64,000 bases of DNA, taken from positions 1 to 64,000 of the forward strand of contig CAKZUP010000139.1 in assembly GCA_937922945.1 (NCBI GenBank), written 5' to 3'. The position numbers were made by a program, and so were the translations under genes. The DNA comes from an uncultured Granulosicoccaceae bacterium. GTDB taxonomy: Bacteria; Pseudomonadota; Gammaproteobacteria; Granulosicoccales; Granulosicoccaceae. Each line of letters begins with the position of its first letter. The stretch's first letter is position 1. The notes under the pieces were generated by a model, which worked only from the letters and a program-made list of their open reading frames with translations, was not told the DNA's origin and made no database searches. This document shows positions 23,490-42,103 of this stretch, one piece after another.

Positions 23490-24224
23490 ATGTCTACAGA
23501 AGCGGCTTTTCTGTCTCCGGTCTACAATCCGAATATGCAAGCCTTCATTAATGAAGGTGAGGCCATTAATGGTGCAAGTTACCAACAACTGATTAATGAG
23601 CATGGCGAAGACAATACACATGTTGCACTTTTCAATCTGTTTAATCACGTTTATGTCGATGACGTGAAAAACCAGTATTCTGGTTCTGCAATTGAAGATG
23701 ATGTCGTCCAAATGCTAGACGAACAGTTGCAAACGGCTACACAGCAAACCACGAGCGCAGCTCAATCAGATGTAAACGAAGTCTATTCCGATTTAATGAA
23801 GTTCTATGCAGAAAGTAGAGTAGAAGAACTGAACAACGACGCTCAAACACCTGCTGGTGAATCGTCTTCCAGTAAAAGTGGTTCACCCGGCAGCTCGGGA
23901 AATGCGGTTGCTGGTAATGCCAGCTCAGAATTGTCGGGTAACTGGTTTGCCGTGCTGGCTCGTGCCATGGGGGCTGCGGCTGGTGAGCATCTAAAGCAGG
24001 CTATAGTATCCGGTTACAAAATTGCGGATATAGCCGGCAGAGCTGAACAGGATACGCAAACAGCTCAAGGTAGAGAGGCGAATGCGCAAAATGCAAAAGA
24101 CATGGCAATTGAACAGGCTAACCTGCAGGCACAAACTCAAATGTTCAAAATGGCCTATGAAGCAACAGCCACACTAATAAAAACGACTGGTGAGAGTTTA
24201 TCTACTATGGCGCGTAAGCAATAA
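23490..24224 (+). CDS. Secreted T3SS needle/filament-like protein (SctF/EspA-like C-terminus)
   Basis: The 244-residue protein has no signal peptide. Residues 1-115 are acidic and helical; about 118-145 form a Ser/Gly linker. The C-terminal about 95 residues resemble the 101-residue protein at 32082-32387: NWFAVLARAMGAAAGEH against NWYETMAQAWGSALNNQ, and TGESLSTMARKQ against MGSALETMARKQ at the very end. Fusion of a needle-type helical hairpin to an extra N-terminal domain recalls EspA-type filament proteins (inference). Strong AAGGAA ribosome binding site. It lies outside the main operon, next to tyrS, on the plus strand. Confidence 0.6.
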   Translation: MSTEAAFLSPVYNPNMQAFINEGEAINGASYQQLINEHGEDNTHVALFNLFNHVYVDDVKNQYSGSAIEDDVVQMLDEQLQTATQQTTSAAQSDVNEVYSDLMKFYAESRVEELNNDAQTPAGESSSSKSGSPGSSGNAVAGNASSELSGNWFAVLARAMGAAAGEHLKQAIVSGYKIADIAGRAEQDTQTAQGREANAQNAKDMAIEQANLQAQTQMFKMAYEATATLIKTTGESLSTMARKQ

Positions 24225-24409: not shown

Positions 24410-24733
24410 TTACGTGTCAAGACTTTCGTTACTGTGCACATTATTTTTATCATAAATACGTTGGAACGATTCTGCATCACTATCTATGACAGTTATACCG
24501 CCAGGTGTAACGCCGAGCAGAACATCAGCGCCTTTGTATTGAATGAGCACAAGGCGTTCTCGGTTACCAACCGCGACGGTTTGCATTACCTTAACGGCTT
24601 TAGAGCTACCTGTTCTTGTGTTATTCATGCTCGCAAGCGTTCGAATAGCCAACCAGGCTAGCACCAACACAACCACTAATGCCAATACCGTTAGTAGCAA
24701 TAGCATAGGAAATTCAGTCTCGTTGGTGCTCAT
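24410..24733 (-). CDS. FliO-like protein of the type III export apparatus
   Basis: The 107-residue protein has one TM helix (about 8-30, MLLLLTVLALVVVLVLAWLA) followed by a cytoplasmic FliO-type domain: VKVMQTVAVGNRERLVLIQ and ADVLLGVTPGGITVI match the FliO pattern 'slG.rerv.lv...lLGVtp..i'. FliO assists assembly of the FliP/Q/R export gate in flagella. Injectisomes are generally described as lacking it. Here it is downstream of sctU on the same strand (164-base gap), and no flagellar genes are present, so it may serve SctR/S/T assembly (inference). Confidence 0.75.
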   Translation of the reverse strand: MSTNETEFPMLLLLTVLALVVVLVLAWLAIRTLASMNNTRTGSSKAVKVMQTVAVGNRERLVLIQYKGADVLLGVTPGGITVIDSDAESFQRIYDKNNVHSNESLDT

Positions 24734-24897: not shown

Positions 24898-26064
24898 CTA
24901 AAGTCCTTCGCTGTTGAACCCGAGTGGATAGCGGGTTAGGTTTTCCCCGGGTGGCAACGGTGGAAATTCCGTCTTTGTAAACGGCGCTGTGGCAACGCGC
25001 TCGCGTTCAAGCATCGCCGTTGTCTTGGTTGCCCAAAGAATAATCTGTGCAACCACTTCGAAAAACTCTTTGGGTATTACGTTGCCGATATCAACATTAG
25101 CCAACAGGGTACGTGCTAGTAGCTCATTGCGTATTACCGGAACATGATTTTCGTTAGCTGCTTCACGCATTTTCGCCGCTAGTTCGTTTTCACCTTTTGC
25201 AGTGACGATGGGCACCGGTTGATTCTCTCTATGGTATTCGATAGCAATGGCAACGTGTGTCGGGTTCACCACGAGTACAGTGGCTGCCCTTGATGCATCC
25301 TCGTGGTTTACTTGTGAAAATTCTTGATGCAGTTGTTTGCGTTGATGTTTAAATGCAGGATCACCTTCGTTGTTTTTTTGTTCCTGCCGAACTTCTCTAA
25401 TCGACATTCGCATTTTCCTGGCGTATGAAAAGCGCTGGTAGCCCCAGTCGAGCAGCATCATGATGGTGAAAATGCCGATGGTCCACAGCATCAATACCAA
25501 TAGTAATTCTTTGAACGCTAATATCAGGCTGATAGTTTGTGAGCCCGGTAATAACATGAGTTCGGATAAAAAGCTGCGAATAACGATAAAAGCCACCAGA
25601 ACCAGAATAATGGTTTTGATGACCGAGAAGAGGACAGCTAGCGCGTTATCCAGACTGAACATGTTCTTGAACCCATTTCCAGGGTTCATGTTGATTAGTT
25701 TAGGCGCAACTTTTTTTAACGTGAATACCGGTCCGGTTTGTAGAAATTCAACCAGTAGTCCGAACAGGGCAATTGGAATGAGTAACGCTGCGCTGATGGA
25801 AATAAACGCATCGAATGCTGTAGCGCCGAGCAAATTGAGTGATTGACTAAAATCGCGTGTGGGAATGGCAAGTGCCGCGTAGAGCAATTCGGTGAGTTTT
25901 TTAACATTAAAGGAGAACGTGAACCAAAGCACAGCAAAAGCAAATGCCAGAACCAACGTGCTCGTCACATCCTTCGATTTAGCGACATCGCCCTGTTTGC
26001 GTGCATCGCGCAAACGGGTTGCGGTGGCCTGTTCCGTTTTCTCGCCACTGCTTGTGTCAGACAT
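24898..26064 (-). CDS. sctU: T3SS export switch protein SctU (FlhB/YscU family)
   Basis: The 388-residue inner-membrane protein starts with the conserved GEKTEQATATRLRDARKQGDVAKSKD. Four TM segments lie at about 33-52, 85-108, 140-165 and 185-207, and the cytoplasmic domain carries the self-cleavage motif NPTH (residues 267-270) in VLVVNPTHVAIAIEY. It switches secretion from early to later substrates after autocleavage. A tail of about 35 residues extends beyond the conserved domain. Unlike most clusters it is not beside sctT but in a divergent unit upstream of sctV, followed by the FliO-like gene. Confidence 0.95.
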   Translation of the reverse strand: MSDTSSGEKTEQATATRLRDARKQGDVAKSKDVTSTLVLAFAFAVLWFTFSFNVKKLTELLYAALAIPTRDFSQSLNLLGATAFDAFISISAALLIPIALFGLLVEFLQTGPVFTLKKVAPKLINMNPGNGFKNMFSLDNALAVLFSVIKTIILVLVAFIVIRSFLSELMLLPGSQTISLILAFKELLLVLMLWTIGIFTIMMLLDWGYQRFSYARKMRMSIREVRQEQKNNEGDPAFKHQRKQLHQEFSQVNHEDASRAATVLVVNPTHVAIAIEYHRENQPVPIVTAKGENELAAKMREAANENHVPVIRNELLARTLLANVDIGNVIPKEFFEVVAQIILWATKTTAMLERERVATAPFTKTEFPPLPPGENLTRYPLGFNSEGL

Positions 26065-26736
26065 TGTTATGGTCCATTTATGTTCTGCATGAGTTTGTCC
26101 GGATTATTCCGTCCCATTCACTTTATACGGTTCGCCTTGCATTGTTCGCCTTGCATTGTTCACCTTGCACTGGTCACTTTGTATAGTTCATGGCTAAGCA
26201 ACACAACTACTCAATCTTAACAGTGCAAACTTCAACTCACATGAGACTCGAGTCACGCGCACTGGCTCGCAAACGCGGTTCTATGTTCAACCTGGAAATC
26301 GTTTGCTGAGAAGTCAGTACTCTAAGTTAAATTTCAGTAGAACGAAACGCATCGCTTTGTGTCTGTTTTTGAACCGATCCTTGTGTAACAGTTAAGTGTG
26401 ATGGGGTTATCAATTTCCAATCGCTTGTGTATGCAAAAACGAATAAACATCGACTGTACTTTAGTCGAGGCTGTTTTAAGTTGTTGATTAGGAATGGAAA
26501 ATCAAATTGACCTTGTTTGCTTGTCAACAATGCCATGAGTACACTAGAACCCTAAAATCATTCGAATGAAATGAAAGAATATTTGAGTGAATCGTAAAGT
26601 TTGTATTGCCACCAACTCGCATCTTTGGATGGAGCGAGGAAAGCAAACTGAAGGTTGTAATTGAGAGACGGGTAAGTTTGCATTGCGATCGTGCGCTGTC
26701 ACGGTATTAGTCGCTGAATGGAATAACAACGGTCAA
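26065..26736. other. Divergent intergenic region between sctU and sctV
   Basis: The gap of about 670 bases separates the two secretion units and should hold promoters for both. It contains five 14-bp tandem units at 26117-26186 close to sctU. Two short minus-strand frames (26327-26536, 26544-26729) look random. The sctV frame is open back to a TTG at 26683. Confidence 0.55.
26117..26186. repeat. 14-bp tandem repeat upstream of sctU
   Basis: Five head-to-tail 14-bp units: TTCACTTTATACGG, two exact copies of TTCGCCTTGCATTG, TTCACCTTGCACTG, and GTCACTTTGTATAG. They lie about 55-120 bases upstream of the sctU start codon, where promoter elements or regulator sites would be expected. Confidence 0.85.
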
Positions 26737-28698
26737 GTGAATATACAAGCATATCTGCGAGATGCAACGGTTGCTTCTGGTAGCAGAAGCTCTAAAGCCA
26801 GTGATATCGTTCTGGCTTTACTCATCGTTGCAACCGTTGCGTTAATGATACTGCCGCTGCCAACGCTATTAATTGATTCTTTGGTGGCGATAAATATAGC
26901 CGTTGGGCTCATGCTCGTGCTAATGGGAATTTATATTAGCAACGCGCTTCAGTTTTCAGCCTTCCCAAGTATTTTACTTATCAGCACGTTATTCCGCTTG
27001 GCGTTGTCCGTGGCCACAACCCGGCTCATCTTGTTGCACGGCGATGCCGGTCATATTATCGATACGTTTGGCAACCTCGTGGTGGGTGGCAATCTGGTTG
27101 TCGGGCTAGTTGTTTTTCTTATTATCACGGTTGTGCAGTTTCTCGTTATAGCCAAAGGTGCTGAACGTGTGGCTGAAGTAGGAGCCCGATTTACACTCGA
27201 TGCCATGCCGGGTAAGCAGCTTTCAATAGATTCAGATTTGCGCTCAGGTTTAATCGATGCCAATGAGGCCAAAGAGATGCGCCGAGAGTTAGAGCTTGAA
27301 AGCAAATTACACGGCAGTATGGACGGTGCCATGAAGTTTGTGAAAGGCGATGCCATAGCCGGCATCATTATCATATTGGTGAATCTGATTGGCGGACTCA
27401 CCATCGGCATATTTCAACTTGGTATGGACACCAGTGGGGCAGTATCAAAATATTCCATATTAACTATTGGGGATGGATTGGTTGCACAAATTCCTGCACT
27501 GTTAGGAGCCATGTCAGCTGGTTTGATTGTGACACGTGCAACCGATTCGCTTAACGACCGGCATCTTGGGGATTCGATTCAAAAGCAATTTTCAGCAAAG
27601 CCTCGGGTATTGTTGGTTGCTGGTGTTATTTGTTTGTTACTGGCATTTATTCCAGGCTTTCCAAGTGCTGTGTTTTTGCTGATTGGTATGGTGCTGCTTA
27701 TTGGTGGCGCTTTTCTAGTACCGGGTTTCAGAGCGAAAATCGATCGACCCTTCAATCAGGTGCTTGACCGGCAAGCCGAAAATCCCCAGTTGGTGAACCC
27801 GGCGCAGGCAGAACAAGTGCAGCAGGCGATACCGCTCTTGCTTGAGCTGCCTAAAAGTCTGGCTCGCAACGAACATAACCAGCTGTTGAACGAACGAATT
27901 ACTGCGTGCGTCAATCAGTATCAATTAAGTTCCGGTGTTGCTATGCCGGATATTCGTATTCATTTTCGTCATGATGCTCAGAAGCAATGGGTGCTCTATG
28001 CTTTCGAAGTGCCCGTAGCGCAAGGCATCGTTAATAGCCAAACACAGGTTGATAGTATTGTTGTACAAATTCATGCTGCGTTGAGAAGAAATGGCACACT
28101 GTTTCTGGGTATTCAGGAAACGGGTCAGCTGCTAACGATCGCTTCAGCAACTTATCCGGAAATTGTGAAGGAAGTCCAGCGCAGTATTCCTGCCCAGAAT
28201 ATCGCTACGATATTACGTAATCTTGTCCAAGAAGAAATCTCAATCAGGAATATGCGTGGCATTCTGGAGGCGTTGGTTGAAGCCTCGCAGCATGAGAAAG
28301 AGGTTAACAATTTAACCGAGTTTGCTCGAATCGCACTGGCCCGGCAAACCTGCTATAAGTTCGCTCCACAGAATTCGCTTGATGCAATAGCGCTGTCACC
28401 ACAGCTTGAAGATCAACTCTCTAAATACGTGCGGGTTTCAGGCGGTATGCAACAGTTCGATATCGATCCGCATAATGCCAAACGGCTGAAAGAAAGTCTC
28501 GCAACGGCCATTGATACTTATCAGCCTAAAGTGCTACTAACCAGTGTTCGCTTACGTCGACATATCCGGGTTTTAATTGCGAAAGATTACTTTGATATAC
28601 CGGTGTTGTCATACAACGAACTCGTTGAATCCCTTGATCTGAACGTCATGCTTCAAGTAATGCCCGATGAGCATACCCCGCTAACGAGCGTCAGCTAA
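26737..28698 (+). CDS. sctV: T3SS export gate protein SctV (FlhA/YscV family)
   Basis: About eight TM helices span residues 20-310, beginning with SDIVLALLIVATVALMILPLPTLLIDSLVAINIAVG. The FHIPEP-type region follows: GARFTLDAMPGKQLSIDSDLRSGLID and AMKFVKGDAIAGIIIILVNLIGG. The C-terminal about 340 residues are the cytoplasmic nonamer domain. It forms the export gate with SctR/S/T. The chosen GTG puts the conserved region near the N-terminus; a TTG at 26683 would add 18 residues. The stop overlaps the sctC start (TAATG). First gene of the main operon. Confidence 0.95.
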   Translation: MNIQAYLRDATVASGSRSSKASDIVLALLIVATVALMILPLPTLLIDSLVAINIAVGLMLVLMGIYISNALQFSAFPSILLISTLFRLALSVATTRLILLHGDAGHIIDTFGNLVVGGNLVVGLVVFLIITVVQFLVIAKGAERVAEVGARFTLDAMPGKQLSIDSDLRSGLIDANEAKEMRRELELESKLHGSMDGAMKFVKGDAIAGIIIILVNLIGGLTIGIFQLGMDTSGAVSKYSILTIGDGLVAQIPALLGAMSAGLIVTRATDSLNDRHLGDSIQKQFSAKPRVLLVAGVICLLLAFIPGFPSAVFLLIGMVLLIGGAFLVPGFRAKIDRPFNQVLDRQAENPQLVNPAQAEQVQQAIPLLLELPKSLARNEHNQLLNERITACVNQYQLSSGVAMPDIRIHFRHDAQKQWVLYAFEVPVAQGIVNSQTQVDSIVVQIHAALRRNGTLFLGIQETGQLLTIASATYPEIVKEVQRSIPAQNIATILRNLVQEEISIRNMRGILEALVEASQHEKEVNNLTEFARIALARQTCYKFAPQNSLDAIALSPQLEDQLSKYVRVSGGMQQFDIDPHNAKRLKESLATAIDTYQPKVLLTSVRLRRHIRVLIAKDYFDIPVLSYNELVESLDLNVMLQVMPDEHTPLTSVS

Positions 28699-31010
28699 TG
28701 AATAGAACTATGTGTAAATCGCCGGCCCATGGAAGAACAATGCTCAACGCTATAATGGTCATCGGCTTTATGCTGACGCTACTCAGTCAGTGGTCGGCCG
28801 CTTATGCCGCGGATATCCCCAATTTTGATAAGCGGGTTTCCATTGCTGCCCGAGAACAGCCGGTGCACGCGTTCTTTAACGAATTATTTGGTGAGATAGG
28901 TGTGCCAGTTAAGGTCGATGCCAATGTTGTTGGTTCGGTCAACGGTGATTTTCGCGGTGCAGCCAGTGCCATTTACAAAGATGTTGAAAAAGCGTTTCAA
29001 TTAGTCATGTACTACGATCGCTCCACCGTATTCATTTACCCCGCCAATCAGGTGTCTCGCAATATCATCCCGATGAGTGAGCAGGTTGGAAAACGCGTGC
29101 TGTTCAATGCCAAGAAAATGCGCCTGAGCGATTCCATGAATAATGTGGAATGGTCCGATATGGGGCTTGTTGTCAGTGGAACCGATAGGTACCAGAAGCA
29201 AATAGAGTCTTATGCGCAAGCTATTCAACAACGAACAGCGACAAAGTCGGTAAAGCAGAGCGTGCCGCAGCCTGAAGCCAATGAAGTCATAAAGGTGTTC
29301 AAGCTGAAGTACGCCTGGGCTGATGATACAACCATTGTGTCCGGTGGCCAGGAACTCATGGTTAGAGGCGTGGCAAGCCTGCTTCGAACAGTGGTTGAGA
29401 CCGGTATGGTTGGTGTCGACACAACCGATAGCAATCAACGTACTCATCTTCCTCGAACAGAGCGGGGCTTACGGGGGCAGGGTTTACAAGCGGTTGGCCG
29501 CGAAGGTGGATCAAAAGCTGAGGGTCGTGGCGCAACAGCGAGCGTTAACACCAGTCGTGATACGCATAGCATGAACAGTACACGCATAGTCGCAGACCCG
29601 CTTAATAACGCGATCATCATTAGAGACCGGGCCGATCGCATGAGGAATTATCAAGAGCTCATTGAGTCTCTGGATATAGAGCCGCAAATGGTTGAAATAG
29701 AAGCGACCATTATCGATATGGATACCGATCGACTACGCTCTTTGGGCATCGACTGGCGCTATCAGAAAGATGGTACGAGTATTTTGTTTGGTAGTGGGGC
29801 TGATCAACTCGGGCTGAGCCAGTCTGCTGTATCTGATGGCTTGAATGGGTTTACACAAAACGTTCTGAATAACAAAGCCCGGTTTCTATCTCATGTTAAA
29901 GCACTCGAGACGCAAGGGGCCGCGCGTATTGTGTCCAAGCCGCACGTTATGACGCTGGCCAATGTCGAAGCTCTGCTGGATACAACAAGCACGTTTTTCA
30001 TACGAGTTGCCGGGCGTGAAGAGGTGGATTTATTCAATGTGTCTGTTGGAACCACAATGAGGGTAACGCCGCATGTGTTTGCTAATGGTGAGCGTTCTCA
30101 GATAAAAATGAAAATCGATATTATCGATGGCAGTCAATCGCAGCAAACAGTCGATGATATTCCTGTCATTGAAGAATCCACCATTAACACGCAAGCGATC
30201 ATTAACGCAGGGCAAAGTCTGTTAATTGGTGGCTTAGTCAGGGAATTCAAAACCACGGGCGTATCGAAAGTGCCTGTATTGGGCGATATACCCGGCCTTG
30301 GTGCATTGTTTCGCAGCAACCGTAAAACCAGTAGCAGAATGGAGCGTATGTTCCTGATTACGCCAAGGCTCAATACACAGGTATCGGCGGGTAAGCGTTA
30401 TTCGGTGCCGATAATATCCGGTAATGAAGGGCAGATTATTGAATCTGGCGCTGCCCGACTTAATCCCGCGCTTGCTGGATTGGCCTCAAGGGATGCAGCG
30501 TTTCCGATCAAGCCCACACTACCAGGCGGGCAAGCAAATATCGAGCTGTCCGTTTCCGATAATCGCAGACCAGTACCTGGCAAGGTTTCGGAGTCGCCAC
30601 CACAGAACAACAGAACAAGGCCACTACAACAACAACCCAACAGGCCGACTACGAATAATCAAATAGTGTCCCAAGGCTCAGGCGCGCAATCACAACATAA
30701 TGCGGCGGCGGTTGCCAACAAGCAGCAGGCATCAAGAGCAGCATTAGATGATCAGAGTGGCTGGCAAAGTGTTGGCAGCTCAACTGCTAAAACGGTAGCT
30801 AGCGACGATAACAGAATAAAAAAACAAGTTGCCCGTGTTCCAGCAACAGGCGAGAAGTTAGAGTTCAGACCAGCAGCTAACAATAAAGCCAACGCTGATG
30901 ATTGGATAGCATTACCTGAATCTGGGACATCCCAGCGATCAAACTCCTCGGTGCAAGTGATAAAAACCGGCACTGGCGAGCAAGATGGTTGGACTGAGAT
31001 AATCCAGTGA
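28698..31010 (+). CDS. sctC: T3SS outer-membrane secretin SctC with extended C-terminus
   Basis: A signal peptide ends at about SAAYAADIP (residue 38). N0/N1-type domains follow, e.g. VSIAAREQPVHAFFNELFGEIGVPVKV and RKxxL-type 'DRYQKQIESYAQAI'. The secretin core includes VEIEATIIDMDTDRLRSLGIDW and ends with VPVLGDIPGLGALFRSNRKTSSRMERMFLITPRL (about residue 560). Some 190 more residues follow, Pro/Gln/Asn-rich and with three short Trp motifs (Trp689, Trp736, Trp765). Pilotin-binding tails occur at this place in other secretins, but this one is long. Overlaps sctV and sctD. Confidence 0.93.
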   Translation: MNRTMCKSPAHGRTMLNAIMVIGFMLTLLSQWSAAYAADIPNFDKRVSIAAREQPVHAFFNELFGEIGVPVKVDANVVGSVNGDFRGAASAIYKDVEKAFQLVMYYDRSTVFIYPANQVSRNIIPMSEQVGKRVLFNAKKMRLSDSMNNVEWSDMGLVVSGTDRYQKQIESYAQAIQQRTATKSVKQSVPQPEANEVIKVFKLKYAWADDTTIVSGGQELMVRGVASLLRTVVETGMVGVDTTDSNQRTHLPRTERGLRGQGLQAVGREGGSKAEGRGATASVNTSRDTHSMNSTRIVADPLNNAIIIRDRADRMRNYQELIESLDIEPQMVEIEATIIDMDTDRLRSLGIDWRYQKDGTSILFGSGADQLGLSQSAVSDGLNGFTQNVLNNKARFLSHVKALETQGAARIVSKPHVMTLANVEALLDTTSTFFIRVAGREEVDLFNVSVGTTMRVTPHVFANGERSQIKMKIDIIDGSQSQQTVDDIPVIEESTINTQAIINAGQSLLIGGLVREFKTTGVSKVPVLGDIPGLGALFRSNRKTSSRMERMFLITPRLNTQVSAGKRYSVPIISGNEGQIIESGAARLNPALAGLASRDAAFPIKPTLPGGQANIELSVSDNRRPVPGKVSESPPQNNRTRPLQQQPNRPTTNNQIVSQGSGAQSQHNAAAVANKQQASRAALDDQSGWQSVGSSTAKTVASDDNRIKKQVARVPATGEKLEFRPAANNKANADDWIALPESGTSQRSNSSVQVIKTGTGEQDGWTEIIQ

Positions 31011-32071
31011 TTAACATGGTGCAGCTTAGTGTGGTTTCCGGGCTGCAGACCGGGGCGAAAATGAGTTTGAACCTGGATCAGTCCTATAGCCTGGGTGCAA
31101 CTATTGAGCACGATATTGTGTTTCGCCATCTTCATACCAGTGGCGTCAAGCTAGTCCCAGCAATAAATGGGCTGCGGGTATTCATTAGGGATGCATCGGA
31201 TACAGAAAAGGCTTGCGTTAATGGGGTTCCCGTTTCTGATACGGGCTCGGGCGTGTTGGTGCCGTACGGGCAAAGATTGCAATTGGGCGATACTACCTTG
31301 TTGTTCGAATACGAATCGCCTCGTTCAGATGACCTTGCTAACCGGATACAATCGACAGAGCCTAGCCCACGCGCCAACTTTGCAACACGCTTGTTACGCG
31401 TCGGCGGCCTATCGGTTATCGGGTTTGTGTTGCTCGGTATGGTGTCCTCGTACAACCATAATAGCCAAAAAAGTGAAAACAACAATATTGCAGCGCTAGA
31501 GTCCCGTCTAGCTCAAGCAAACTTTGCAGATCTCAGTGTCAATAGGGACGATGGCAAAATCTTTATGGTTGGCTATGTCGCTACCCGCGATCAAGCAATG
31601 CAGGTAGCCAATTTTATTGCGCAGCAGCCCGAGCCCATTATTAACAGAGTATTGGTTGATGAAGAGATTCGCGACCACATCAAAGATGTATTACGCATAA
31701 ACGGGGTAAGCGGCTCTATAGATTCAATGGGACAAGGTGAGTTTGTTGCCAATACCCGAATTAGTTCGCCGGAAAAGCTTGCCAGCTTGCAGTCATTAAT
31801 TAAAAAAGACGTACCTTCAGCTCGTTCGTTCAAGCTGATCAATGAACCGCCACCACAACCTCAGCCGGTTGCCAAGCAAACCTCGCCAGAACTCGACGCG
31901 GGTAAGCGTGTGGTGATGGTTAATTCCGATTCCCCAGCTTACGTCGTAACAGAGGACCACTCTCGTTATTTTGTGGGGTCAACGTTACCGGGCGGTTACC
32001 GAATTTCTGCTATCACCAATGGACGTGTCACGGTGGAAAAGCAGGGTGTTAAAACTGAGCTCAAATTTTAA
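31007..32071 (+). CDS. sctD: T3SS inner-membrane ring protein SctD (YscD/PrgH family)
   Basis: The 354-residue protein has an N-terminal FHA-like cytoplasmic domain (about 3-105), one TM (about 125-145, GLSVIGFVLLGMVSSY), and periplasmic ring-building (BON-type) modules to the end (NFADLSVNRDDGKIFMVGYVATRDQAMQVANFI). SctD forms the outer circle of the inner-membrane ring with SctJ. The start is GTG at 31007 overlapping sctC, or ATG at 31016 (MVQLSVVSG). The C-terminal segment VVMVNSDSPAYVVTEDHSRYFVGSTLPGGYRI resembles the end of other SctD proteins. Confidence 0.85.
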   Translation: MINMVQLSVVSGLQTGAKMSLNLDQSYSLGATIEHDIVFRHLHTSGVKLVPAINGLRVFIRDASDTEKACVNGVPVSDTGSGVLVPYGQRLQLGDTTLLFEYESPRSDDLANRIQSTEPSPRANFATRLLRVGGLSVIGFVLLGMVSSYNHNSQKSENNNIAALESRLAQANFADLSVNRDDGKIFMVGYVATRDQAMQVANFIAQQPEPIINRVLVDEEIRDHIKDVLRINGVSGSIDSMGQGEFVANTRISSPEKLASLQSLIKKDVPSARSFKLINEPPPQPQPVAKQTSPELDAGKRVVMVNSDSPAYVVTEDHSRYFVGSTLPGGYRISAITNGRVTVEKQGVKTELKF

Positions 32072-32081
32072 GGAGAAAATA

Positions 32082-32387
32082 ATGAGTGAACTAAATGCAG
32101 TACAGAGTCAGCTGAACGTCGGTTATAAAAATACAAACAGTGCTGCTGAGCCTGACAAAAACAGCAATTGGTATGAAACCATGGCGCAGGCCTGGGGCAG
32201 TGCATTGAACAATCAAGCCAGTACATTAGTCGAACAGGCAGCGCAGATCGCCAACGGGGAGCAGTCGCCAGAAGCCATCACTTTACTCACCGCTGAATCT
32301 TTGCGCATGCAGTTTCTCTCCAATAGTTCTCATACGGCTTTAACCAGTATGGGGTCGGCGCTTGAAACCATGGCCCGAAAGCAATAA
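32082..32387 (+). CDS. Putative T3SS needle protein (SctF-like)
   Basis: The 101-residue, helical, Cys-free protein sits between sctD and sctI, where sctF lies in Ysc-type operons. Two helices (about 28-52 and 62-101) separated by a short turn at GEQSPEAI fit the needle hairpin. The C-terminus ETMARKQ and the NWYETMAQAWGSALNNQ helix are shared with the 244-residue protein upstream at 23490. It lacks obvious identity to well-known needle sequences, so the call rests on size, fold pattern and position. Strong AGGAGA ribosome binding site at 32071-32076. Confidence 0.6.
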   Translation: MSELNAVQSQLNVGYKNTNSAAEPDKNSNWYETMAQAWGSALNNQASTLVEQAAQIANGEQSPEAITLLTAESLRMQFLSNSSHTALTSMGSALETMARKQ

Positions 32388-32408: not shown

Positions 32409-32825
32409 ATGGAAGTACTGTCCAGTTCAATAAATACTATCAATAACGGTCTTGATTCGCTGAGCAAACCAGAAACGGTTGTTGCAGGTTATAACGTGAA
32501 CTTAAGCTCGGCTGAGCTCGCATTCTCTCACGCATTAGATCAGGCTGAACTTGCGCAACGGCATAGTAGTGCCGCTGAGGATTTATCAGCGCCCAGCGCA
32601 GTGCTCGAAGCATTAATGTCTCCGTTTTCACATATCGATGTGCAGGCTTCACAGTTAGCAGATTATGCCGAGCAGGCAGCCCAATCCGGGAGTACGCTAA
32701 ATCCAGGGGATGTGGTTATGCTTACAGCGAGAAGTCAGGAGTTTATGTTTCACAGTCAATTGCTTGCCAATATAGCGAACCGTACAACCGATGGGTTGCA
32801 GCAACTGTTTAGACAACAGAGTTGA
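32409..32825 (+). CDS. sctI: T3SS inner rod protein SctI
   Basis: The 138-residue protein has the typical SctI C-terminus: LNPGDVVMLTARSQEFMFHSQL, then NIANRTTDGLQQLFRQQS, the pattern 'pgdll.lq..l.ey.l..el.akv..k....l..llk.Q'. The N-terminal half is variable, as usual. SctI forms the adaptor between export gate and needle. The ribosome binding site GAGGAGAT precedes the ATG by 6-8 bases. Gene order D-needle-I-J follows Ysc-type loci. Confidence 0.88.
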   Translation: MEVLSSSINTINNGLDSLSKPETVVAGYNVNLSSAELAFSHALDQAELAQRHSSAAEDLSAPSAVLEALMSPFSHIDVQASQLADYAEQAAQSGSTLNPGDVVMLTARSQEFMFHSQLLANIANRTTDGLQQLFRQQS

Positions 32826-32837
32826 TTGGGGCAAACG

Positions 32838-33707
32838 ATGGAAAAACACAAACCAGTTAAACGCGCGCTCGTCATTGGTGTCGTTATGTTCTTGCTATCG
32901 GCCTGTAACGAAGAAACTGTGTACTCCAAGCTGAGTGAGCGTGAAGCCAATGAAATGATCGCGCTATTGGTCAGCTCTGGAATTGGAGCTCGTAAGGGTG
33001 CGGACAAAGACGGTAAGTTTAAAGTTCTAACTGAGTCTCAGAACTTTGCTACTGCAGTTAATGTGCTTAGCGTTAATGGATTTCCGCGTGAAACGTACAA
33101 TACGCTCGGAGATGTGTTTTCCAAAGAAAGTTTTGTCTCTTCGCCTCTGGAAGAGCGCGCCCGATTAAACTTCGCTTTATCTCAAGAGATTGCCAACACC
33201 TTATCGAGTATCGATGGGGTGTTGTTAGCGCGTGTGCATCTGGCGGTGCCACCTAGAGATGATCTTAGTAATAGCGTGCCGCCAGCGTCAGCTTCTGTGT
33301 TTATCAAACATCGAAGCGATGTCGACCTTAGCGGGAACACCAGCATGATAAAAAACCTGGTTGTAGATGGTATCGAAAATCTGGCCTATGAGGATGTAAC
33401 GGTAGCGTTCTTTAAGTCAGGCTATGGTTCATCGCCTAGCGTAGAACCAGCAACGCTGCTTAATGCGGCTGCTGATACCAGGCAAGTAGATGCGCAATCA
33501 ACGCTGAGTGGGCTGCGGCTTAGCTTGATACCGTCGATCAGCCCTACTGTGTTGGTGGCGTCGGCTCTGGGCTTTGGTTTGTTGCTCGTACTGGGTAGTT
33601 TCTGGCGGCGTAAGCCCTCAGTTGCGAACCACGATACGGTAAACCCGAATCAGATAAACCCGAATCAGATAAACCAAGATCCTGCTGGCAAGATCGACCA
33701 ACCATGA
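32838..33707 (+). CDS. sctJ: T3SS inner-membrane ring lipoprotein SctJ
   Basis: Lipoprotein signal RALVIGVVMFLLSAC (Cys23) is followed by the conserved YSKLSEREANEMIALLVSSGIGA and LNFALSQEIANTLSSIDGVLLARVHLAVP. A C-terminal TM lies at about 240-262 (TVLVASALGFGLLLVLGSF), after which a basic, Asn/Gln/Pro tail contains a 15-bp duplication (33641-33670). The ATG at 32838 is preferred; a TTG at 32826 would add MGQT. SctJ forms the inner ring on the periplasmic face. Overlaps the next gene by 4 bases. Confidence 0.93.
   Translation: MEKHKPVKRALVIGVVMFLLSACNEETVYSKLSEREANEMIALLVSSGIGARKGADKDGKFKVLTESQNFATAVNVLSVNGFPRETYNTLGDVFSKESFVSSPLEERARLNFALSQEIANTLSSIDGVLLARVHLAVPPRDDLSNSVPPASASVFIKHRSDVDLSGNTSMIKNLVVDGIENLAYEDVTVAFFKSGYGSSPSVEPATLLNAAADTRQVDAQSTLSGLRLSLIPSISPTVLVASALGFGLLLVLGSFWRRKPSVANHDTVNPNQINPNQINQDPAGKIDQP
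33641..33670 (+). repeat. 15-bp tandem duplication in the sctJ tail
   Basis: Two exact copies of AAACCCGAATCAGAT and a decayed third (AAACCAAGATCC) encode NPNQI repeats after the C-terminal membrane helix of SctJ. Confidence 0.85.
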
Positions 33708-34456
33708 ATAACCCCGACGCCAGACAAGCATCTATCCGGTATAAGCGAGCCACATTAGCCCGCACATTGTTGCAGGAGCACATCAAAGGCAATCTGGATT
33801 CCACCGTACACTGGTCATGGGATGTTCTCGATGCATTGCCCGATTGGTGTGCCATGAATCAGCCCGACCGCATGCAACTGCAATTGATCAGTGGCGCATA
33901 TTTACTGGCCCCTGCAATGCAACTTTGGATAGATCGGCGAGTTATTCAATCGGCAATAGCGATTATTGGCGAGAAAGCGTTTACCGATGCGCTTGCTTTC
34001 AATACTCCGCAGGCGTTTCCAACGGGCGATTTTCTCGACTTCGAGAACTACATTGGATTCAATGGCGGTGCGTTCAATAACAATGAACAATGCCGACATG
34101 GCTTGCATGGTGCATTCGAGCAGGCGGGCAACCAGGTTGTTAAGGCAAGTTTGCCCGCGAACACGCCAGAGCCGTTAGTAAAATTGTTGTGCCCAGAGAG
34201 CTTTCGAGCTGAAAGGGTAGCCCTGCGTGAGGGCTCGCTGAGCAATTCATTGCGAAAGGGCCTACTGAGCAATTCATTGTGCATGGCGCTTATCGAGCGT
34301 GCATTAGCCCATATAAATACCACTGGCGGGTCTACGTCTGAGGACCCTCCAGAATCGACAGATTTAACCGATCAGTCTATCCGCAGTAATCTATTCAATG
34401 GTGATGCTGTGCATGCGGATAATCGTGCCGATAGCACTGCGGGGCCGCCTCTATGA
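33704..34456 (+). CDS. T3SS accessory sorting-platform protein SctK-like
   Basis: The 250-residue soluble protein lies between sctJ and sctL with 4-base overlaps on both sides, the normal SctK place. LPDWCAMNQPDRMQLQLISGAYLLAPAMQLWIDRRVIQSAIAIIGEKAF resembles the central YscK region; otherwise the family is weakly conserved. SctK links SctQ pods to the inner ring. A 15-bp stretch is repeated at 34238-34252 and 34265-34279, giving a doubled LSNSL. The last 50 residues are polar and probably disordered. Confidence 0.65.
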   Translation: MNNPDARQASIRYKRATLARTLLQEHIKGNLDSTVHWSWDVLDALPDWCAMNQPDRMQLQLISGAYLLAPAMQLWIDRRVIQSAIAIIGEKAFTDALAFNTPQAFPTGDFLDFENYIGFNGGAFNNNEQCRHGLHGAFEQAGNQVVKASLPANTPEPLVKLLCPESFRAERVALREGSLSNSLRKGLLSNSLCMALIERALAHINTTGGSTSEDPPESTDLTDQSIRSNLFNGDAVHADNRADSTAGPPL

Positions 34457-35067
34457 CCTTGCTGTCACTGATTTCAGACAAACGTGGTTTTTTGGCCACC
34501 GATCAGCTGGTTTACAGTGCCGATGAACTGTCGTCGTTAACAGAAGCTTCTGAGCTTGTTGAGCGCCTGCGAGATTCTGTTGCGCGTCAGGCAGAACTGG
34601 AAGCCGACGCAAAACAAGAAGGGTATTCGGCTGGGTATAAAGAAGGTGTGCTTCAGGCAAAAGCTGCGTATGAAAAAAAACAAGCCGACATGTTGCTCGA
34701 ATTACAAACAGCTTACGAGCAGGATGTTGTCGATACGCGTAACGCGTGCGCCACACTGGCCATAGACATTGTTCGAAAAATAGCCGGCAACGTTGCGCCA
34801 GCAGATTGGTTGTACGCCGAGGCTTGCACAGCGGCAGCAGAACTGATTGATCAAAGCGCTCTGGTTTTACGCGTACACACTGATCATTACGCTGATATGT
34901 TGGAACGCGTGAATGAGCGCGACGTTTTTGAGCGCGTTGTTGTCGATGAAAGCCTTGCAGCGGGTGCGTGTTTTATCGATACGCGATACGGCGCCATTGC
35001 CATTGATCTTGAAACTCAGATGCAGCAAGTGCTCAAAATATTGAACACGGACGATGCCGAACCATGA
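34453..35067 (+). CDS. sctL: T3SS ATPase stator SctL (YscL/FliH family)
   Basis: The 204-residue protein has a helical N-terminus with Ala/Glu-rich coiled coil including a FliH-type GYSAGYKEGVLQAKAAYEKK segment. The C-terminal V-ATPase-E-like domain follows: ATLAIDIVRKIAGNVAPADWL and ALVLRVHTDHY, then VVVDESLAAGACFIDTRYGAIAIDLETQ. It binds the ATPase SctN and the C-ring protein SctQ. Overlaps sctK and sctN by four bases each. Confidence 0.88.
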   Translation: MTLLSLISDKRGFLATDQLVYSADELSSLTEASELVERLRDSVARQAELEADAKQEGYSAGYKEGVLQAKAAYEKKQADMLLELQTAYEQDVVDTRNACATLAIDIVRKIAGNVAPADWLYAEACTAAAELIDQSALVLRVHTDHYADMLERVNERDVFERVVVDESLAAGACFIDTRYGAIAIDLETQMQQVLKILNTDDAEP

Positions 35068-36449
35068 GTGAGCTTCAATTCAATCGTGCTCGGCCCAGCC
35101 AGAACCGGGTTAACCATAGCAAGGCTGGCAGCGGTGCGTTGGCAGACGTTGCAGATGGTCTGCGTGAGCGGCTCAATAGTGGTAGCACGCTGGAGCATGT
35201 CGGCAGAATTGTAAAAGCCGTGGGTACATCCTTGCGGGTGAGTGGTTTGCCTGTACGAATTGGGCAGAGATGCGAAGTGCGCGACAGGGACAGCGGCCAG
35301 ATTGTGCAGGCGGATGTTGTCGGCTTAGAGCAGGGCGACGCTATTTTAGTGCCGCTCAGTGGTTTGCATGGTTTGGCCGTTGATTCGGAAGTTCGCGTTG
35401 TTGCCGAGCAGGTGGGTGTTTGCGTTAATGATGCATTGTTAGGTCGGGTTGTTAATGGATTTGGACAGCCGCTTGATAAGTTGCCTCTTCCCACAGGCGG
35501 GCGAAGCATGCCGTTGCGCAATCGATCGCCTAACCCGTTAACTCGTCAACGTATTAACACGCCACTCATATCCGGGGTTAAAGCCATTGATGCATTGCTG
35601 TCCATCGGTATAGGACAGCGTATGGGGGTGTTTGCGCCAGCCGGTGCGGGTAAGTCCACCTTGCTTGGCATGCTGGCGGGTCACGCCGAATGCGATGTGA
35701 TCGTTATTGGTCTTATCGGCGAGCGTGGGCGTGAGGTCAGAGAGTTTTTAGAAGATGCACTCAGTGCAGATGCGAGGCGTCGCTCGGTCGTGGTGGTTGC
35801 TACTTCCGATTCTGCTGCAATGGAGCGGGTGAGTGCTGCCGATACCGCTACTGCCATTGCTGAAGGTTTTCGCGACAAAGGAAAACATGTTCTGCTGCTT
35901 ATCGACTCGATTACCCGTTATGCCAGAGCTTTACGCGAGATGGGTTTGGCCATAGGTGAGCCACCCGTACGACAGGGCTTTACGCCGTCGGTGTTCGCAG
36001 AGCTACCGCGGTTGTTTGAACGCAGTGGCAATAGTGAAGTGGGGAGCATCAGCGCGTTTTACACCGTGCTTACCGACGACGAAACCGGTAACGACCCTAT
36101 CGCGGAGGAAACCCGTTCTATTCTCGATGGGCACATTGTGCTTTCACGTTCACTGGCAGAACGAGGGCATTTCCCGGCAATCGATATTTTGGCAAGTCAG
36201 AGTCGTTTGTTCACGCAGTTAGCCAACGATGAGCATCAACAGGATGCAAATAAATACCGAGCGCTGTTAGCCAAACATGCTGAAGTTGAATTTCTGGTTC
36301 AGATAGGTGAGTACAAGGCAGGCTCAGATGCGTTGGCTGATGAAGCAATTGCGAAAGCACCTCAGCTCAATTCGTTGGTCCAGCAAAGCTTGGGCGAGCT
36401 TGTTCCTGTATCAACAACGCTCGACACATTAAAGTTAATTGTAAGGTGA
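35064..36449 (+). CDS. sctN: T3SS ATPase SctN
   Basis: The 461-residue F1-like hexameric ATPase strips chaperones and unfolds substrates at the cytoplasmic base. Walker A is PAGAGKST (about 192-199), followed by IGLIGERGREVREFLED. Walker B is LLLIDSITRYARALREMGLAIGEPP, then RQGFTPSVFAELPRLFERSG. The conserved catalytic Glu sits in GERGRE. The N-terminal 45 residues are Ser/Asn/Arg-rich and variable. It is typical of non-flagellar SctN and easily separated from FliI only by context. Confidence 0.96.
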   Translation: MSELQFNRARPSQNRVNHSKAGSGALADVADGLRERLNSGSTLEHVGRIVKAVGTSLRVSGLPVRIGQRCEVRDRDSGQIVQADVVGLEQGDAILVPLSGLHGLAVDSEVRVVAEQVGVCVNDALLGRVVNGFGQPLDKLPLPTGGRSMPLRNRSPNPLTRQRINTPLISGVKAIDALLSIGIGQRMGVFAPAGAGKSTLLGMLAGHAECDVIVIGLIGERGREVREFLEDALSADARRRSVVVVATSDSAAMERVSAADTATAIAEGFRDKGKHVLLLIDSITRYARALREMGLAIGEPPVRQGFTPSVFAELPRLFERSGNSEVGSISAFYTVLTDDETGNDPIAEETRSILDGHIVLSRSLAERGHFPAIDILASQSRLFTQLANDEHQQDANKYRALLAKHAEVEFLVQIGEYKAGSDALADEAIAKAPQLNSLVQQSLGELVPVSTTLDTLKLIVR

Positions 36450-36457
36450 GCTGACAG

Positions 36458-36952
36458 ATGCCTATCAATACCAATCGGTCGGTTCAAATAGATAGTCTGC
36501 TTAAGGTCTGTGAGTGTCGGGTGGAACAGGCATTCAATGTTCTGCAAAACGAGCAACAGTTAGTACACGAACTTGAAAACAAGTGCAAAGAGATTACGTC
36601 GAGCATACAGGGTCTTGAAAAAAAGCTCGCCGGTCTGGATAGCGACAGACCGAATGCGGCTGATATCAGCGTGGAGATATTGCAGGCTGAAGCATCTGCT
36701 CGAGCGATTATTGAACGCGATTTGCGCAAAGAAGTGTTCTATTTACAAACCGCAGAAAAGGATGTGCTCAACGCACAAAATGTGTTGGAGTCCAGTCGCG
36801 AGCAATGGCAGTCTCATCAAAAAAAGTTGGAATCCATTCAGCACTTGCAGGGTGATTATCAGGTAAACGAAAAACGACGTGAGCAAGTCAAGAGTGATGG
36901 TGCAGCAGATGAAATGGGCATTACCATTCACCATAGGAATTCGAATGGATAA
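36458..36952 (+). CDS. T3SS central stalk protein SctO-like (YscO/FliJ type)
   Basis: The 164-residue protein is almost entirely a predicted alpha-helical coiled-coil hairpin (LLKVCECRVEQAFNVLQNEQQLVHELENK, then a second long Glu/Lys/Gln-rich helix ending near residue 150). Its place directly after sctN and before sctP fits SctO, which rotates or plugs within the ATPase ring. Sequence conservation in this family is low, so the call depends on shape and order. Confidence 0.78.
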   Translation: MPINTNRSVQIDSLLKVCECRVEQAFNVLQNEQQLVHELENKCKEITSSIQGLEKKLAGLDSDRPNAADISVEILQAEASARAIIERDLRKEVFYLQTAEKDVLNAQNVLESSREQWQSHQKKLESIQHLQGDYQVNEKRREQVKSDGAADEMGITIHHRNSNG

Positions 36953-38701: not shown

Positions 38702-39335
38702 GCAATCGGTAGAGCGCATTATTTTTGTTCTGGATGATAATCAGCAATTCAGAGAGTCAACTCGTTGGCTGCTGGAGTCCATGGACTATCAGGTGGAAAC
38801 GTTTTCTGATCCCGATGCCGCCATTACCAGAATGGAAGGACTTAGCGATAAAGTTGAATCCGTTTTATTGCTTGATATCAGAATGCCGATAATGAGTGGG
38901 CTGGATGTGCACGACATCATGAACAAGAAGGGCATTGCTTTGCCCGTTGTCTATATGACGGCGCACGGCGATGTGCCGCTTGCGGTTACTGCAATGTCAA
39001 AAGGTGCGCTGACGTTCCTGGAGAAACCACTCCATGAAGAGAGTCTGCAAAAAGTGCTTCAGTCGGCGTTTTCCGAAACGGTGCAAATTCGTCGCAGTGT
39101 AAAGGCCAACAACGAAGAGTTTGCTCGAACAAGAGAGCGATTAGGCAAACTTACTCGACGCGAGTCTCAAATAGTGCAAGGGATTCTGGCCGACATGAGT
39201 AATCAACAGATCGCCAGCGAATTTAATATCAGTGTTAAAACGGTTGAGTTGTATCGATCGAAAGTCATGAGCAAGCTAGAGGCAAAAAATGCCGCTCACT
39301 TGGTTCGTATGGTGATGACCTGTGCACCCGCTTAG
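38694..39335 (+). CDS. LuxR/FixJ-family response regulator inside the T3SS operon
   Basis: The ATG has a strong GGAGGAG ribosome binding site at 38680-38686; an upstream in-frame start within the kinase gene gives an implausible Cys-rich leader. The 213-residue protein has an N-terminal receiver (about 8-125) with DD (LDDNQ), phospho-acceptor Asp61 in LLLDIRMPIMSG, Thr in MTAHGD and Lys in LEKPL. The C-terminal LuxR helix-turn-helix (about 150-210) reads LTRRESQIVQGILADMSNQQIASEFNISVKTVELYRSKVM. Domain type is FixJ/TodT. Together with the adjacent kinase it likely controls T3SS or effector expression. Confidence 0.93.
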   Translation: MAKQSVERIIFVLDDNQQFRESTRWLLESMDYQVETFSDPDAAITRMEGLSDKVESVLLLDIRMPIMSGLDVHDIMNKKGIALPVVYMTAHGDVPLAVTAMSKGALTFLEKPLHEESLQKVLQSAFSETVQIRRSVKANNEEFARTRERLGKLTRRESQIVQGILADMSNQQIASEFNISVKTVELYRSKVMSKLEAKNAAHLVRMVMTCAPA

Positions 39336-40302
39336 TCAATACATGCCGGTGAAACCTCCAACCGGCTGGATTCGTCATTGTTATCGTGCTGACGATATCG
39401 CGTTGACCATTGACACACCTGAAGCGTGCTTTCTGTCTGAGCATAGTGATGGTGAAACGATAATGGAAAGTGGTGTGCAAAGTAATTTGCACGACGCCGC
39501 GGTAGCGCCGTTGTTATCGGCCATTGCACTGGCAGAGCAGGAAACACTACTGCACTGTGTTTCGCAGTGGCTCGGCAAAGAACTTGATTGGCAGGAGAGT
39601 GCTGAATTGCATGCCAGTTTGCCGATCGACGTCACGTTGAGTCGTCATTCTGCATCAGAGAAAGTAGGGTTGTCTTTTGTGGCTATGCATTCAAACTTAC
39701 CCGAGTTTCCATCGACACTCAAAACACAATACGCTGCGAAAGCACACCGGCAACGTCTCAGTGTGTGTCTGTCGGAAATAGCGCTTGGTTCAGCCGATCA
39801 GAACAGGCTCGGTCCGGGTTGCTGTGTTTTGTTGCCCGATACTTTTGCCAACTCTTTTGCCGTGTCATTGTTTAACGAAACCTATAAAGAGGGCGTTCTT
39901 AATGCATTACTCAACCCGCGTGAACACACAGCCAGGCCACTGCCAACAGTCGGTGCACCGAATAATGCGGACGTCGAACTGCGTAAAAAGCTCTCCGACG
40001 AGCCTGAGTGCTCTATCTCAACGTTGAACAATACGGCGCAAGACCCTCAGGCGATGAACCGCACGGTGCTTCGTTTTGTACTGGATGCCACTGTCGAAAT
40101 TGACGTATCCCAATGGATGCAGTTTGACTCAAGCACAACTGATAAACCCGATAAGCCGCCCGAAGGTGTACGCGACGCACAGGCGTTCACTAAGTTGGCG
40201 GGCCAATCTGTGCGGGTTGAGCAGCGCGGAATGCCTTCCAGAAAAGCCAAGCTCATTCGCGTGGGTGATGGTTTTGCCGCGTTATTCGATAACGATTGGT
40301 AA
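39322..40302 (+). CDS. sctQ: T3SS cytoplasmic C-ring protein SctQ-like
   Basis: The 326-residue protein is placed between the regulator and sctR, as SctQ usually is. The N-terminal region (to about 230) is divergent. The C-terminal SpoA-like (FliN/FliM) domain is at about 245-326: LRFVLDATVEIDVSQWMQF and GQSVRVEQRGMPSRKAKLIRVGDGFAALFDNDW. The start is a GTG overlapping the regulator; an ATG at 39343 is an alternative. An internal start giving a separate SpoA-only product, as in some SctQ genes, cannot be excluded. Confidence 0.78.
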   Translation: MHPLSQYMPVKPPTGWIRHCYRADDIALTIDTPEACFLSEHSDGETIMESGVQSNLHDAAVAPLLSAIALAEQETLLHCVSQWLGKELDWQESAELHASLPIDVTLSRHSASEKVGLSFVAMHSNLPEFPSTLKTQYAAKAHRQRLSVCLSEIALGSADQNRLGPGCCVLLPDTFANSFAVSLFNETYKEGVLNALLNPREHTARPLPTVGAPNNADVELRKKLSDEPECSISTLNNTAQDPQAMNRTVLRFVLDATVEIDVSQWMQFDSSTTDKPDKPPEGVRDAQAFTKLAGQSVRVEQRGMPSRKAKLIRVGDGFAALFDNDW

Positions 40303-40322
40303 CGGACGACGACGCTTTTACT

Positions 40323-40976
40323 ATGGACCTTACCGAATTCTCACCATCGTCTGCGCTACTGACTGTCGTGTTTTTAGGGCTGCTGCCTTTTATCGCCGTG
40401 ATGGTGACATCGTTTACAAAAATAGTCGTTGTACTAAGCCTGCTTCGCAATGCGCTGGGTGTACAGCAAATTCCCCCCAACATGGTGTTAAACGGTCTGG
40501 CGATTATCCTGAGCGTGTATGTTATGTATCCGGTGGGGCAACAAATCAGTCAAGGGCTGGCGGGGCAGGAAAACATCGCGCAAAGCACCGATACCATGCT
40601 CCAGGCCGCCGAGGTCGCGAAGGAGCCATTGAAGGCATTTTTGCTAAAGCATTCGGACGAAAAAGAGCGGCAGTTCTTTCTGGATACGTTGAACAGAATG
40701 GTTGAGCCAGATAATGTGACGTCAGTCTCTGCTACTGATCTTATCGTTCTTATACCGGCGTTCACCGTAAGCGAGCTTACCGATGCATTTCAAATTGGAT
40801 TTTTAATATTTCTGCCGTTCATTATTATTGATCTTGTAATCGCCAATATACTCATGGCCATGGGTATGATGATGCTATCGCCAACGGTTGTGTCTTTACC
40901 TTTTAAACTATTGTTGTTTGTCATTATTGAAGGTTGGGCAAAGCTTGCGCACGGGTTGGTGTTGTCGTACTTATGA
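40323..40976 (+). CDS. sctR: T3SS export gate protein SctR (FliP/YscR family)
   Basis: The protein of about 217 residues begins MDLTEFSPSSALLTVVFLGLLPFIAVMVTSFTKIVVVLSLLRNALGVQQIPPNMVLNGLAI, the hallmark of SctR/FliP (SFxKxxVVLxxLRxAlGxQQxPPn). LIPAFTVSELTDAFQIGFLIFLPFIIIDLVIANILMAMGMMMLSP is equally characteristic. Four TM helices form the gate core. A TTG at 40296 overlapping sctQ would add nine residues. No fliP-type signal peptide is present, consistent with an injectisome. Confidence 0.95.
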   Translation: MDLTEFSPSSALLTVVFLGLLPFIAVMVTSFTKIVVVLSLLRNALGVQQIPPNMVLNGLAIILSVYVMYPVGQQISQGLAGQENIAQSTDTMLQAAEVAKEPLKAFLLKHSDEKERQFFLDTLNRMVEPDNVTSVSATDLIVLIPAFTVSELTDAFQIGFLIFLPFIIIDLVIANILMAMGMMMLSPTVVSLPFKLLLFVIIEGWAKLAHGLVLSYL

Positions 40977-41036: not shown

Positions 41037-41309
41037 ATGCGCACCGCTGATATCGTTAGCATAACCCAGGAGTCACTATGGCTCATACTGGTTCTTGCTG
41101 GCCCGCCTGTCGTGGTTGCCGCTTTGGTTGGCCTTGTCATTGCCTTTTTTCAGGCAGCAACTCAGTTGCAGGAACAAAGCTTTCAGTATGCCGCCAAATT
41201 CTTTGCAGTGATGCTAACGCTGTTTGTTATGGCGTCGCTGATGGGTGGCGCGCTATACCAGTTTTCCGATCGCATCTTCACAGACTTTGCGGTAATGGTG
41301 GGCTCTTAA
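41037..41309 (+). CDS. sctS: T3SS export gate protein SctS (FliQ/YscS family)
   Basis: The 90-residue protein has two TM helices (LWLILVLAGPPVVVAALVGLVIAFFQAATQLQEQSFQYAAKFFAVMLTLFVMASLMGG). The segment GLVIAFFQAATQLQEQ is the FliQ/SctS signature. It follows sctR after a 60-base gap, the largest within the operon's distal half, and its stop overlaps the sctT start (TAATG). Confidence 0.95.
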   Translation: MRTADIVSITQESLWLILVLAGPPVVVAALVGLVIAFFQAATQLQEQSFQYAAKFFAVMLTLFVMASLMGGALYQFSDRIFTDFAVMVGS

Positions 41310-42103
41310 TGCCGGAGCTTTTCGATATGCTCTCGCAACACGCATTAATTCTTGCCTTGGCGACCCTACGCATTTCCGTCGCATTTGCTACTTTGCCATT
41401 GTTTAATCGTGAGAGCATTCCGCCGTTGGTGCGAGGTTCGCTTTTTGTCTCACTAGCCCTAATCAGTATAGTGACTCAACCAGCGGGCTCGATAACCCAG
41501 CTGGATTCAAGTATTTGGTTAAACCTGTTCTTAAAAGAAGCGTTAGTCGGCTTATGTTTGGGCATATTCTTCGGTTTATTTCTGTGGGCGTTTGAAGCCG
41601 CTGGCGTCATCATCGATATGCAAATAGGCGCATCGTTCGGCTTGTTCTTCGACCCTTTAATTGGTAACGAAGTAACGCTTACCGGTTCATTTCTGAGCCG
41701 CTTGGCGGGGTATCTGTTCGTGGCATCGGGTGGCTTGTTACTACTCTCAGGGGCTTTGTTGGAAAGCTTCAATTTGTGGCCAATTGCCGAGCCGGTTGCG
41801 AGCTTCAGGGTTGCTTCTGTGCGCTTGTTCGAAGCGGAGTACTCGCATTTTTTCTCGCTGGCGATGCGTATTGCCGGGCCTATTATTGTCGTGTTATTTA
41901 TTATTGATGTTTGTATGGGATTGGTTAATCGCTATGCTCAGCAATTTAACGTGTTCTTCCTGTCCATGTCGATAAAATCGATTGCGACCATTCTTATGAT
42001 GATCATTCTGTTGCCCTATTTGGTTGATGTGTTAGTGCACGAGCTGAGCCTTGCCAGCGCGTCCTGGGAGTCGAACTTGAAAAGTATATTGAATACCAAC
42101 TAG
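41309..42103 (+). CDS. sctT: T3SS export gate protein SctT (FliR/YscT family)
   Basis: It starts at the ATG overlapping the sctS stop (MPELFDMLSQHALILALATLRISVAFATLPLFNRESIPPLVRGSL). The frame is open further upstream through sctS, but that leader is out-of-frame noise. The 264-residue protein has about six TM segments; FKEALVGLCLGIFFGLFLWAFEAAGVIIDMQIGASFGLFFDPL is typical. SctT closes the SctR5S4T1 export gate. It is the last gene of the main operon; sctU does not follow here. Confidence 0.94.
   Translation: MPELFDMLSQHALILALATLRISVAFATLPLFNRESIPPLVRGSLFVSLALISIVTQPAGSITQLDSSIWLNLFLKEALVGLCLGIFFGLFLWAFEAAGVIIDMQIGASFGLFFDPLIGNEVTLTGSFLSRLAGYLFVASGGLLLLSGALLESFNLWPIAEPVASFRVASVRLFEAEYSHFFSLAMRIAGPIIVVLFIIDVCMGLVNRYAQQFNVFFLSMSIKSIATILMMIILLPYLVDVLVHELSLASASWESNLKSILNTN

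Follow-up and report, generated by a model that had tools for sequence, protein, structure and literature searches.

Results

The window, a stretch of 64,000 nucleotides from an uncultured Granulosicoccaceae bacterium, carries a non-flagellar type III secretion system (NF-T3SS) with a FliO-family gene next to its sctU (Table 1). A 107-aa open reading frame (ORF) with an ATG start fills positions 24410-24733 of the minus strand exactly, and sctU, in the same orientation, ends 164 bp upstream of it. This gap is longer than in most relatives, and no terminator-like site was found in it on the strand of the two genes. The sctU-fliO pair is divergent from a long operon in which sctV-C-D are followed by the gene of a needle-like protein, an sctI candidate, sctJ, sctK/L/N/O/P (assigned by family or position), a kinase/regulator pair, sctQ and sctR-S-T. 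SctV, SctC, SctD, SctJ, SctR, SctS and SctT all score above the curated NF-T3SS equivalog cut-offs; SctU (344 versus 358) and SctN (551 versus 605) fall slightly below theirs, yet their best-scoring models are the NF-T3SS ones. No translocon protein was identified in the window system, and the needle-like protein is kept in place without a family match. The other NF-T3SS of this genome (L003) likewise has the histidine kinase and LuxR-type regulator between sctP and sctQ.

Table 1. Genes of the NF-T3SS locus and beside its FliO gene, with positions in the window (scores in bits)
Feature	Position	Strand	Evidence and remarks
244-aa protein	23490..24224	+	adjoins fliO; no family match
FliO-family protein, 107 aa	24410..24733	-	short acidic N-terminus, TM helix, predicted cytoplasmic beta domain; strands 48-54, 60-66, 69-76, 79-85
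sctU, FlhB/YscU family	24898..26064	-	NPTH autocleavage motif; PF01312 334.9; TIGR01404 (SctU) 344 versus flhB 295
sctV, divergent from sctU-fliO	26683..28698	+	TIGR01399 697.3, above cut-off 692.25; start codon unrefined
sctC, secretin	28698..31010	+	TIGR02516 379.9, above cut-off
sctD	31007..32071	+	TIGR02500 95.1, above cut-off 86
small needle-like protein, SctF candidate	32091..32387	+	position and conservation in most lineage loci; no family match
sctI candidate	32409..32825	+	PF17001 18.2, below cut-off
sctJ	32826..33707	+	TIGR02544 205.1, above cut-off
sctK, by position	33704..34456	+	operon position; no family match
sctL	34453..35067	+	PF02108 25.5, above cut-off 24.1; SctL model TIGR02499 45.3
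sctN, ATPase	35064..36449	+	best model TIGR02546 550.8, below cut-off 604.75; subfamily TIGR01026 above cut-off
sctO candidate	36458..36952	+	YscO-like PF16789 24.9, just below cut-off 27
histidine kinase and LuxR-type response regulator	37520-39335	+	within the T3SS operon, between sctP and sctQ
sctQ, by position	39322..40302	+	precedes sctR; no Pfam match
sctR, presumed FliO client	40296..40976	+	TIGR01102 264.6, above cut-off; fliP model 201.7, below cut-off
sctS	41037..41309	+	TIGR01403 86.4, above cut-off 76.5
sctT	41309..42103	+	TIGR01401 190.9, above cut-off 163; likely start ~41309 (listed ORF opens at 41078)

The 244-aa protein adjoining fliO resembles the needle-like protein in its C-terminal part (NWF..LARAMG ... 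LSTMARKQ; 24% identity, E 3e-4, in a single comparison). Homologues stand beside sctU/fliO in L041, L058, L072, L089, L100, L112, L117 and L127, and in L112 and L117 their N-terminus is a glycine-rich hydrophobic stretch, which suggests that the family may be a secreted needle-domain or translocator-like substrate.

An earlier note on this DNA had read the ORF as FliO from a single TM segment followed by a domain with VAVGNRERLVLIQ and LLGVTPGGITVI. Both motifs are present in the ORF, and the Pfam FliO profile PF04347 matches it significantly, at 47.7 bits (E 1.7e-12; gathering cut-off 22), which places it in the family; the flagellar FliO equivalog of NCBIfam, TIGR03500, scores 49.1 bits, slightly short of its cut-off of 55.25, so that the protein falls outside the equivalog. 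All 35 aligned FliOs of the lineage (35/35) match PF04347 singly, and no competing family explains them. An AlphaFold2/ColabFold model built on this alignment of 35 sequences consists of a single long helix (residues 7-42), a linker and a four-stranded sheet (48-85), with a mean pLDDT of 79.8. It thus has the one N-terminal TM helix and small antiparallel beta-sheet domain of the FliO fold, and is like the FliO core described in PMC12403147. The assignment and the predicted architecture therefore both stand. Neither profile nor fold searches returned a solved relative in the PDB, and hence there is no structural template for FliO. A chance ORF or a generic TM protein is ruled out by the profile match and the model, together with the conservation and selection described below.

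The injectisome FliOs have few residues before the TM helix and end shortly past the sheet, whereas the flagellar FliOs of relatives carry a signal-peptide-like stretch at the front and a longer C-terminal part. Because the window protein has neither the signal peptide or periplasmic stretch nor more than a little C-terminal extension, its mode of action may differ from that of flagellar FliO. Both kinds share a TM helix followed by a small beta domain, probably cytoplasmic, that bears the core signature G-x-R-E-R ... LLGVT, and both are encoded by a single gene adjoining export-gate genes. The location of this domain is suggested for the injectisome FliOs by the acidic N-terminus and the basic residues after the helix.

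The genome (C139, Granulosicoccaceae) is 94% complete and was searched for the flagellar markers FliG, FliP and FliO. FliG_C has no match in the whole genome, while control genomes do match; the FliP/SctR family has exactly two members, both SctR of NF-T3SS loci, with no third found genome-wide. Since FliG is unmatched and the only FliP-family proteins are two SctR, the organism probably has no flagellum, and for the same reason the window gene is not a stray flagellar one. The genome encodes two FliOs and no more, and each gene lies 3' of the sctU of a separate complete NF-T3SS; the second (C80:50575, 128 aa) follows its sctU directly, at the edge of the second system. The position downstream of sctU with no flagellar genes in the window was thus as the earlier note described, and a separate flagellar fliO, which it had proposed to look for, does not occur in the genome. 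The second system (L003 and L004, G000:C80) belongs to the same T3SS lineage as that of the window.

Searching 84,980 species genomes with an SctU alignment yielded 80 loci, with hosts in Granulosicoccaceae, Burkholderiales, Caulobacter, Sphingomonas and Dyella. A FliO-like ORF is present in 73 of them, directly 3' of sctU in 71 and beside sctV in two (Dyella); in L062, extra to the 73, the start of FliO is encoded but the contig breaks off within the gene. L097 stops too early to show whether it has FliO, L055 is an isolated sctU alone, and four members (L092, L102, L112 and L117) apparently have no FliO beside sctU, so that FliO may be dispensable in some systems of the lineage. Several Sphingomonadales and relatives have the arrangement sctU-fliO-sctR-sctS-sctT, like the flagellar fliO-P-Q-R. 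Wherever context was read among 57 relatives, FliO matches lay in flagellar fliO-P-Q-R or in sctU-fliO, except in L042 (2717-3157; G029), whose FliO-domain protein has no flagellar or T3SS export genes among its checked neighbors and forms a long branch in the FliO tree. Within the same genus, FliO is found downstream of all eight lineage-type SctU genes (8/8), and L041 shows full synteny with the window flanks. In one relative (G023), an injectisome fliO occurs alongside a flagellar one. The NF-T3SS of a further genome of the genus (G015) is of another type (sctR-S-T-U) and has no FliO beside sctU, and the presence of FliO therefore follows the T3SS lineage, not the host.

Classical injectisomes, taken as the systems from 25 further genomes of Pseudomonadota whose SctV exceeds the TIGR01399 cut-off, share with the window system the core of SctC, D, J, N, R, S, T, U and V, but differ from it in having no FliO in the injectisome locus: none was found near the 28 SctV genes above the cut-off in these 25 genomes, nor by profile search in 20 excerpts of classical SctV loci. 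In the lineage of the window, FliO is a stable trait.

The FliO tree, built on only 92 columns, separates 29 injectisome FliOs from the flagellar ones (support 99/98), and so the window protein differs from flagellar FliO in its branch as well as in being encoded after the sctU of an injectisome and scoring below the TIGR03500 cut-off. The window's genus has its flagellar FliOs on the other side of this split, which rules out co-option from a flagellum of that genus. The Dyella FliOs (L128 15310-15903 and L129 15940-16335), which lie beside sctV rather than sctU and keep a signal-peptide-like N-terminus, also fall on the flagellar side, possibly as a separate acquisition. Within the lineage, FliO and SctU distances are correlated (Mantel r 0.78; 0 of 2000 permutations as high). 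The dN/dS of close FliO pairs is mostly 0.1-0.5 and always below 0.6, the ratios being approximate because some compared ORFs were trimmed by profile; the lineage FliOs are under purifying selection.

SctV and five-gene trees were rooted on flagella, with Myxococcota and Chlamydiota systems outside the sample. Both recover the window lineage as a single clade, fully supported by SH-aLRT. When the sampled classical systems were constrained together, the lineage was their sister in the SctV tree, which gained 6.27 log units over the free quick tree (p-AU 0.724); the corresponding five-gene tree, without the long-branch row L240, was 1.14 log units worse (p-AU 0.418). Dropping L240 altered the branch order, and the order of NF-T3SS branches shifts with the gene and taxon sets.

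Discussion

It might be asked whether a stray or relic flagellar fliO has come to lie beside sctU by chance, as the window protein is after all a member of the FliO family. We regard this as extremely improbable and reject it. The genome has neither FliG nor a flagellar FliP, a second copy in the same genome has the same neighbor, purifying selection acts on the lineage FliOs, and those of flagella in the same genus group elsewhere; above all, the idea is refuted by the conserved sctU-fliO adjacency, which is kept in 71 loci of alpha-, beta- and gammaproteobacteria.

We propose instead that the FliO-family protein of this lineage, made from an sctU-fliO transcript, probably acts like flagellar FliO in assembling the SctR/S/T(-U) export gate. 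In Salmonella, FliP is stabilized by FliO, which also promotes formation of the FliP-FliR core ahead of the remaining gate components (PMC5542435). By analogy, the likely co-transcript would yield a protein that inserts into the membrane in a single pass, with the acidic N-terminus outside and, on the cytoplasmic side, the basic linker and the four-stranded beta domain. Such a protein may then transiently stabilize SctR and/or SctU, so that an SctR5-SctT(-SctS4) gate could form with its help before the SctD/SctJ rings close round the gate. This explanation is based on family, predicted fold, synteny, the absence of the searched flagellar markers, conservation in the lineage, purifying selection and a divergence that parallels that of SctU; what we infer is the topology, the co-transcription, the clients and the chaperone function. 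An assembly chaperone is the best-supported role in light of FliO biology and synteny, and it is also the simplest reading given the conserved core signature, the position beside sctU (in Sphingomonadales beside sctR as well) and the co-divergence with SctU. Against it stand the TIGR03500 score below the cut-off, the absence of the end segments of flagellar FliO, the four loci that apparently have no FliO beside sctU, the comparatively wide sctU-fliO gap of the window, and the fact that classical injectisomes assemble without FliO.

An alternative that we consider rather unlikely is that FliO has been repurposed and, for example, stabilizes or regulates SctU in substrate switching instead of chaperoning SctR. 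In most loci fliO adjoins sctU rather than sctR, neither the N-terminal nor the C-terminal part of flagellar FliO is present in the injectisome protein, and Campylobacter FliO is described in PMC12403147 as affecting the stability or levels of FlhB and not the levels of FliP. However, fliO lies between sctU and sctR in Sphingomonadales, and the G-x-R-E-R ... LLGVT core is identical to that of flagellar FliO, both of which count against repurposing.

In the earlier note, a FliO-type factor was suggested to have been either kept or regained by an injectisome. This holds for the whole NF-T3SS lineage, and the trees and AU tests do not tell the two histories apart. The first NF-T3SS might have had FliO, with classical injectisomes losing it and the window lineage and the Myxococcota systems retaining it, a history to which we give not quite an even chance. 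It accords with the higher likelihood of the SctV tree in which classical systems are held together, and with the position of fliO directly 5' of sctR-S-T in Sphingomonadales, as in flagellar operons, although that adjacency could be secondary. Myxococcota systems have been placed as the earliest NF-T3SS branch (PMC3459982) and are FliO-positive according to PMC12403147; together these two points are compatible with retention and count against a later gain. The branch order changes with gene and taxon sets, however, and was obtained from a sample without Myxococcota and Chlamydiota. Alternatively, the ancestor of the lineage might have been a FliO-less injectisome that acquired a flagellar fliO beside sctU, the gene from then on moving together with the system; we find this conceivable at somewhat less than even chance. 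In the free SctV tree and in one concatenated tree, FliO-less classical groups flank the lineage on both sides, so that one gain is simpler there than several losses, and the Dyella FliO, which lies beside sctV, keeps a signal peptide and falls on the flagellar side of the tree, suggests that separate uptake can happen. Yet the T3SS FliOs group together, separate from every flagellar FliO in the sample, their nearest relative not being a flagellar donor, and trees in which the lineage branches first among the sampled NF-T3SS are not rejected by the AU test (p-AU 0.724 and 0.418).

The premise of the earlier note, that injectisomes have no counterpart of FliO, reflects the textbook view before 2025. 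In that year FliO was reported in NF-T3SS operons of Myxococcota and several orders of Pseudomonadota, Granulosicoccales included, with Myxococcus xanthus and Luteimonas among the cases and some genomes without a flagellum (PMC12403147). The absolute flagella-only rule had thus already been broken, so that the central surprise of the note was published and its weight is limited, and the window FliO is a well-supported further example, not the first. Beyond that paper, searches on this T3SS lineage by host names and on type III secretion in Granulosicoccus returned nothing. The cases reported there are likewise FliO-domain proteins in NF-T3SS operons, their list of orders overlaps largely with the lineage described here, and most of those orders recur in the 84,980-genome SctU scan. 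What differs from the available text of PMC12403147 is the description given here of sctU-fliO adjacency across the lineage, of a shared reduced form and of co-divergence with SctU. Our addition is that the sampled cases, the Dyella FliO apart, make up a single T3SS lineage, whose members share a reduced FliO that tracks SctU, and that this FliO may have been retained from the flagellar ancestor.

Tentatively, and at less than even chance, we suggest that the window system belongs to an early-branching NF-T3SS lineage that retains the FliO of the flagellar ancestor in reduced form, the need for it having been lost in classical injectisomes. If true, injectisomes would have first assembled their export gate with FliO. 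A whole lineage of FliO injectisomes, two of them in a genome without flagellar markers, bears on the origin of injectisomes from flagella, and the four members apparently lacking an adjoining FliO provide natural controls for its replacement. An injectisome lineage with a stable, co-evolving FliO makes it testable why some export gates need a helper and others do not.
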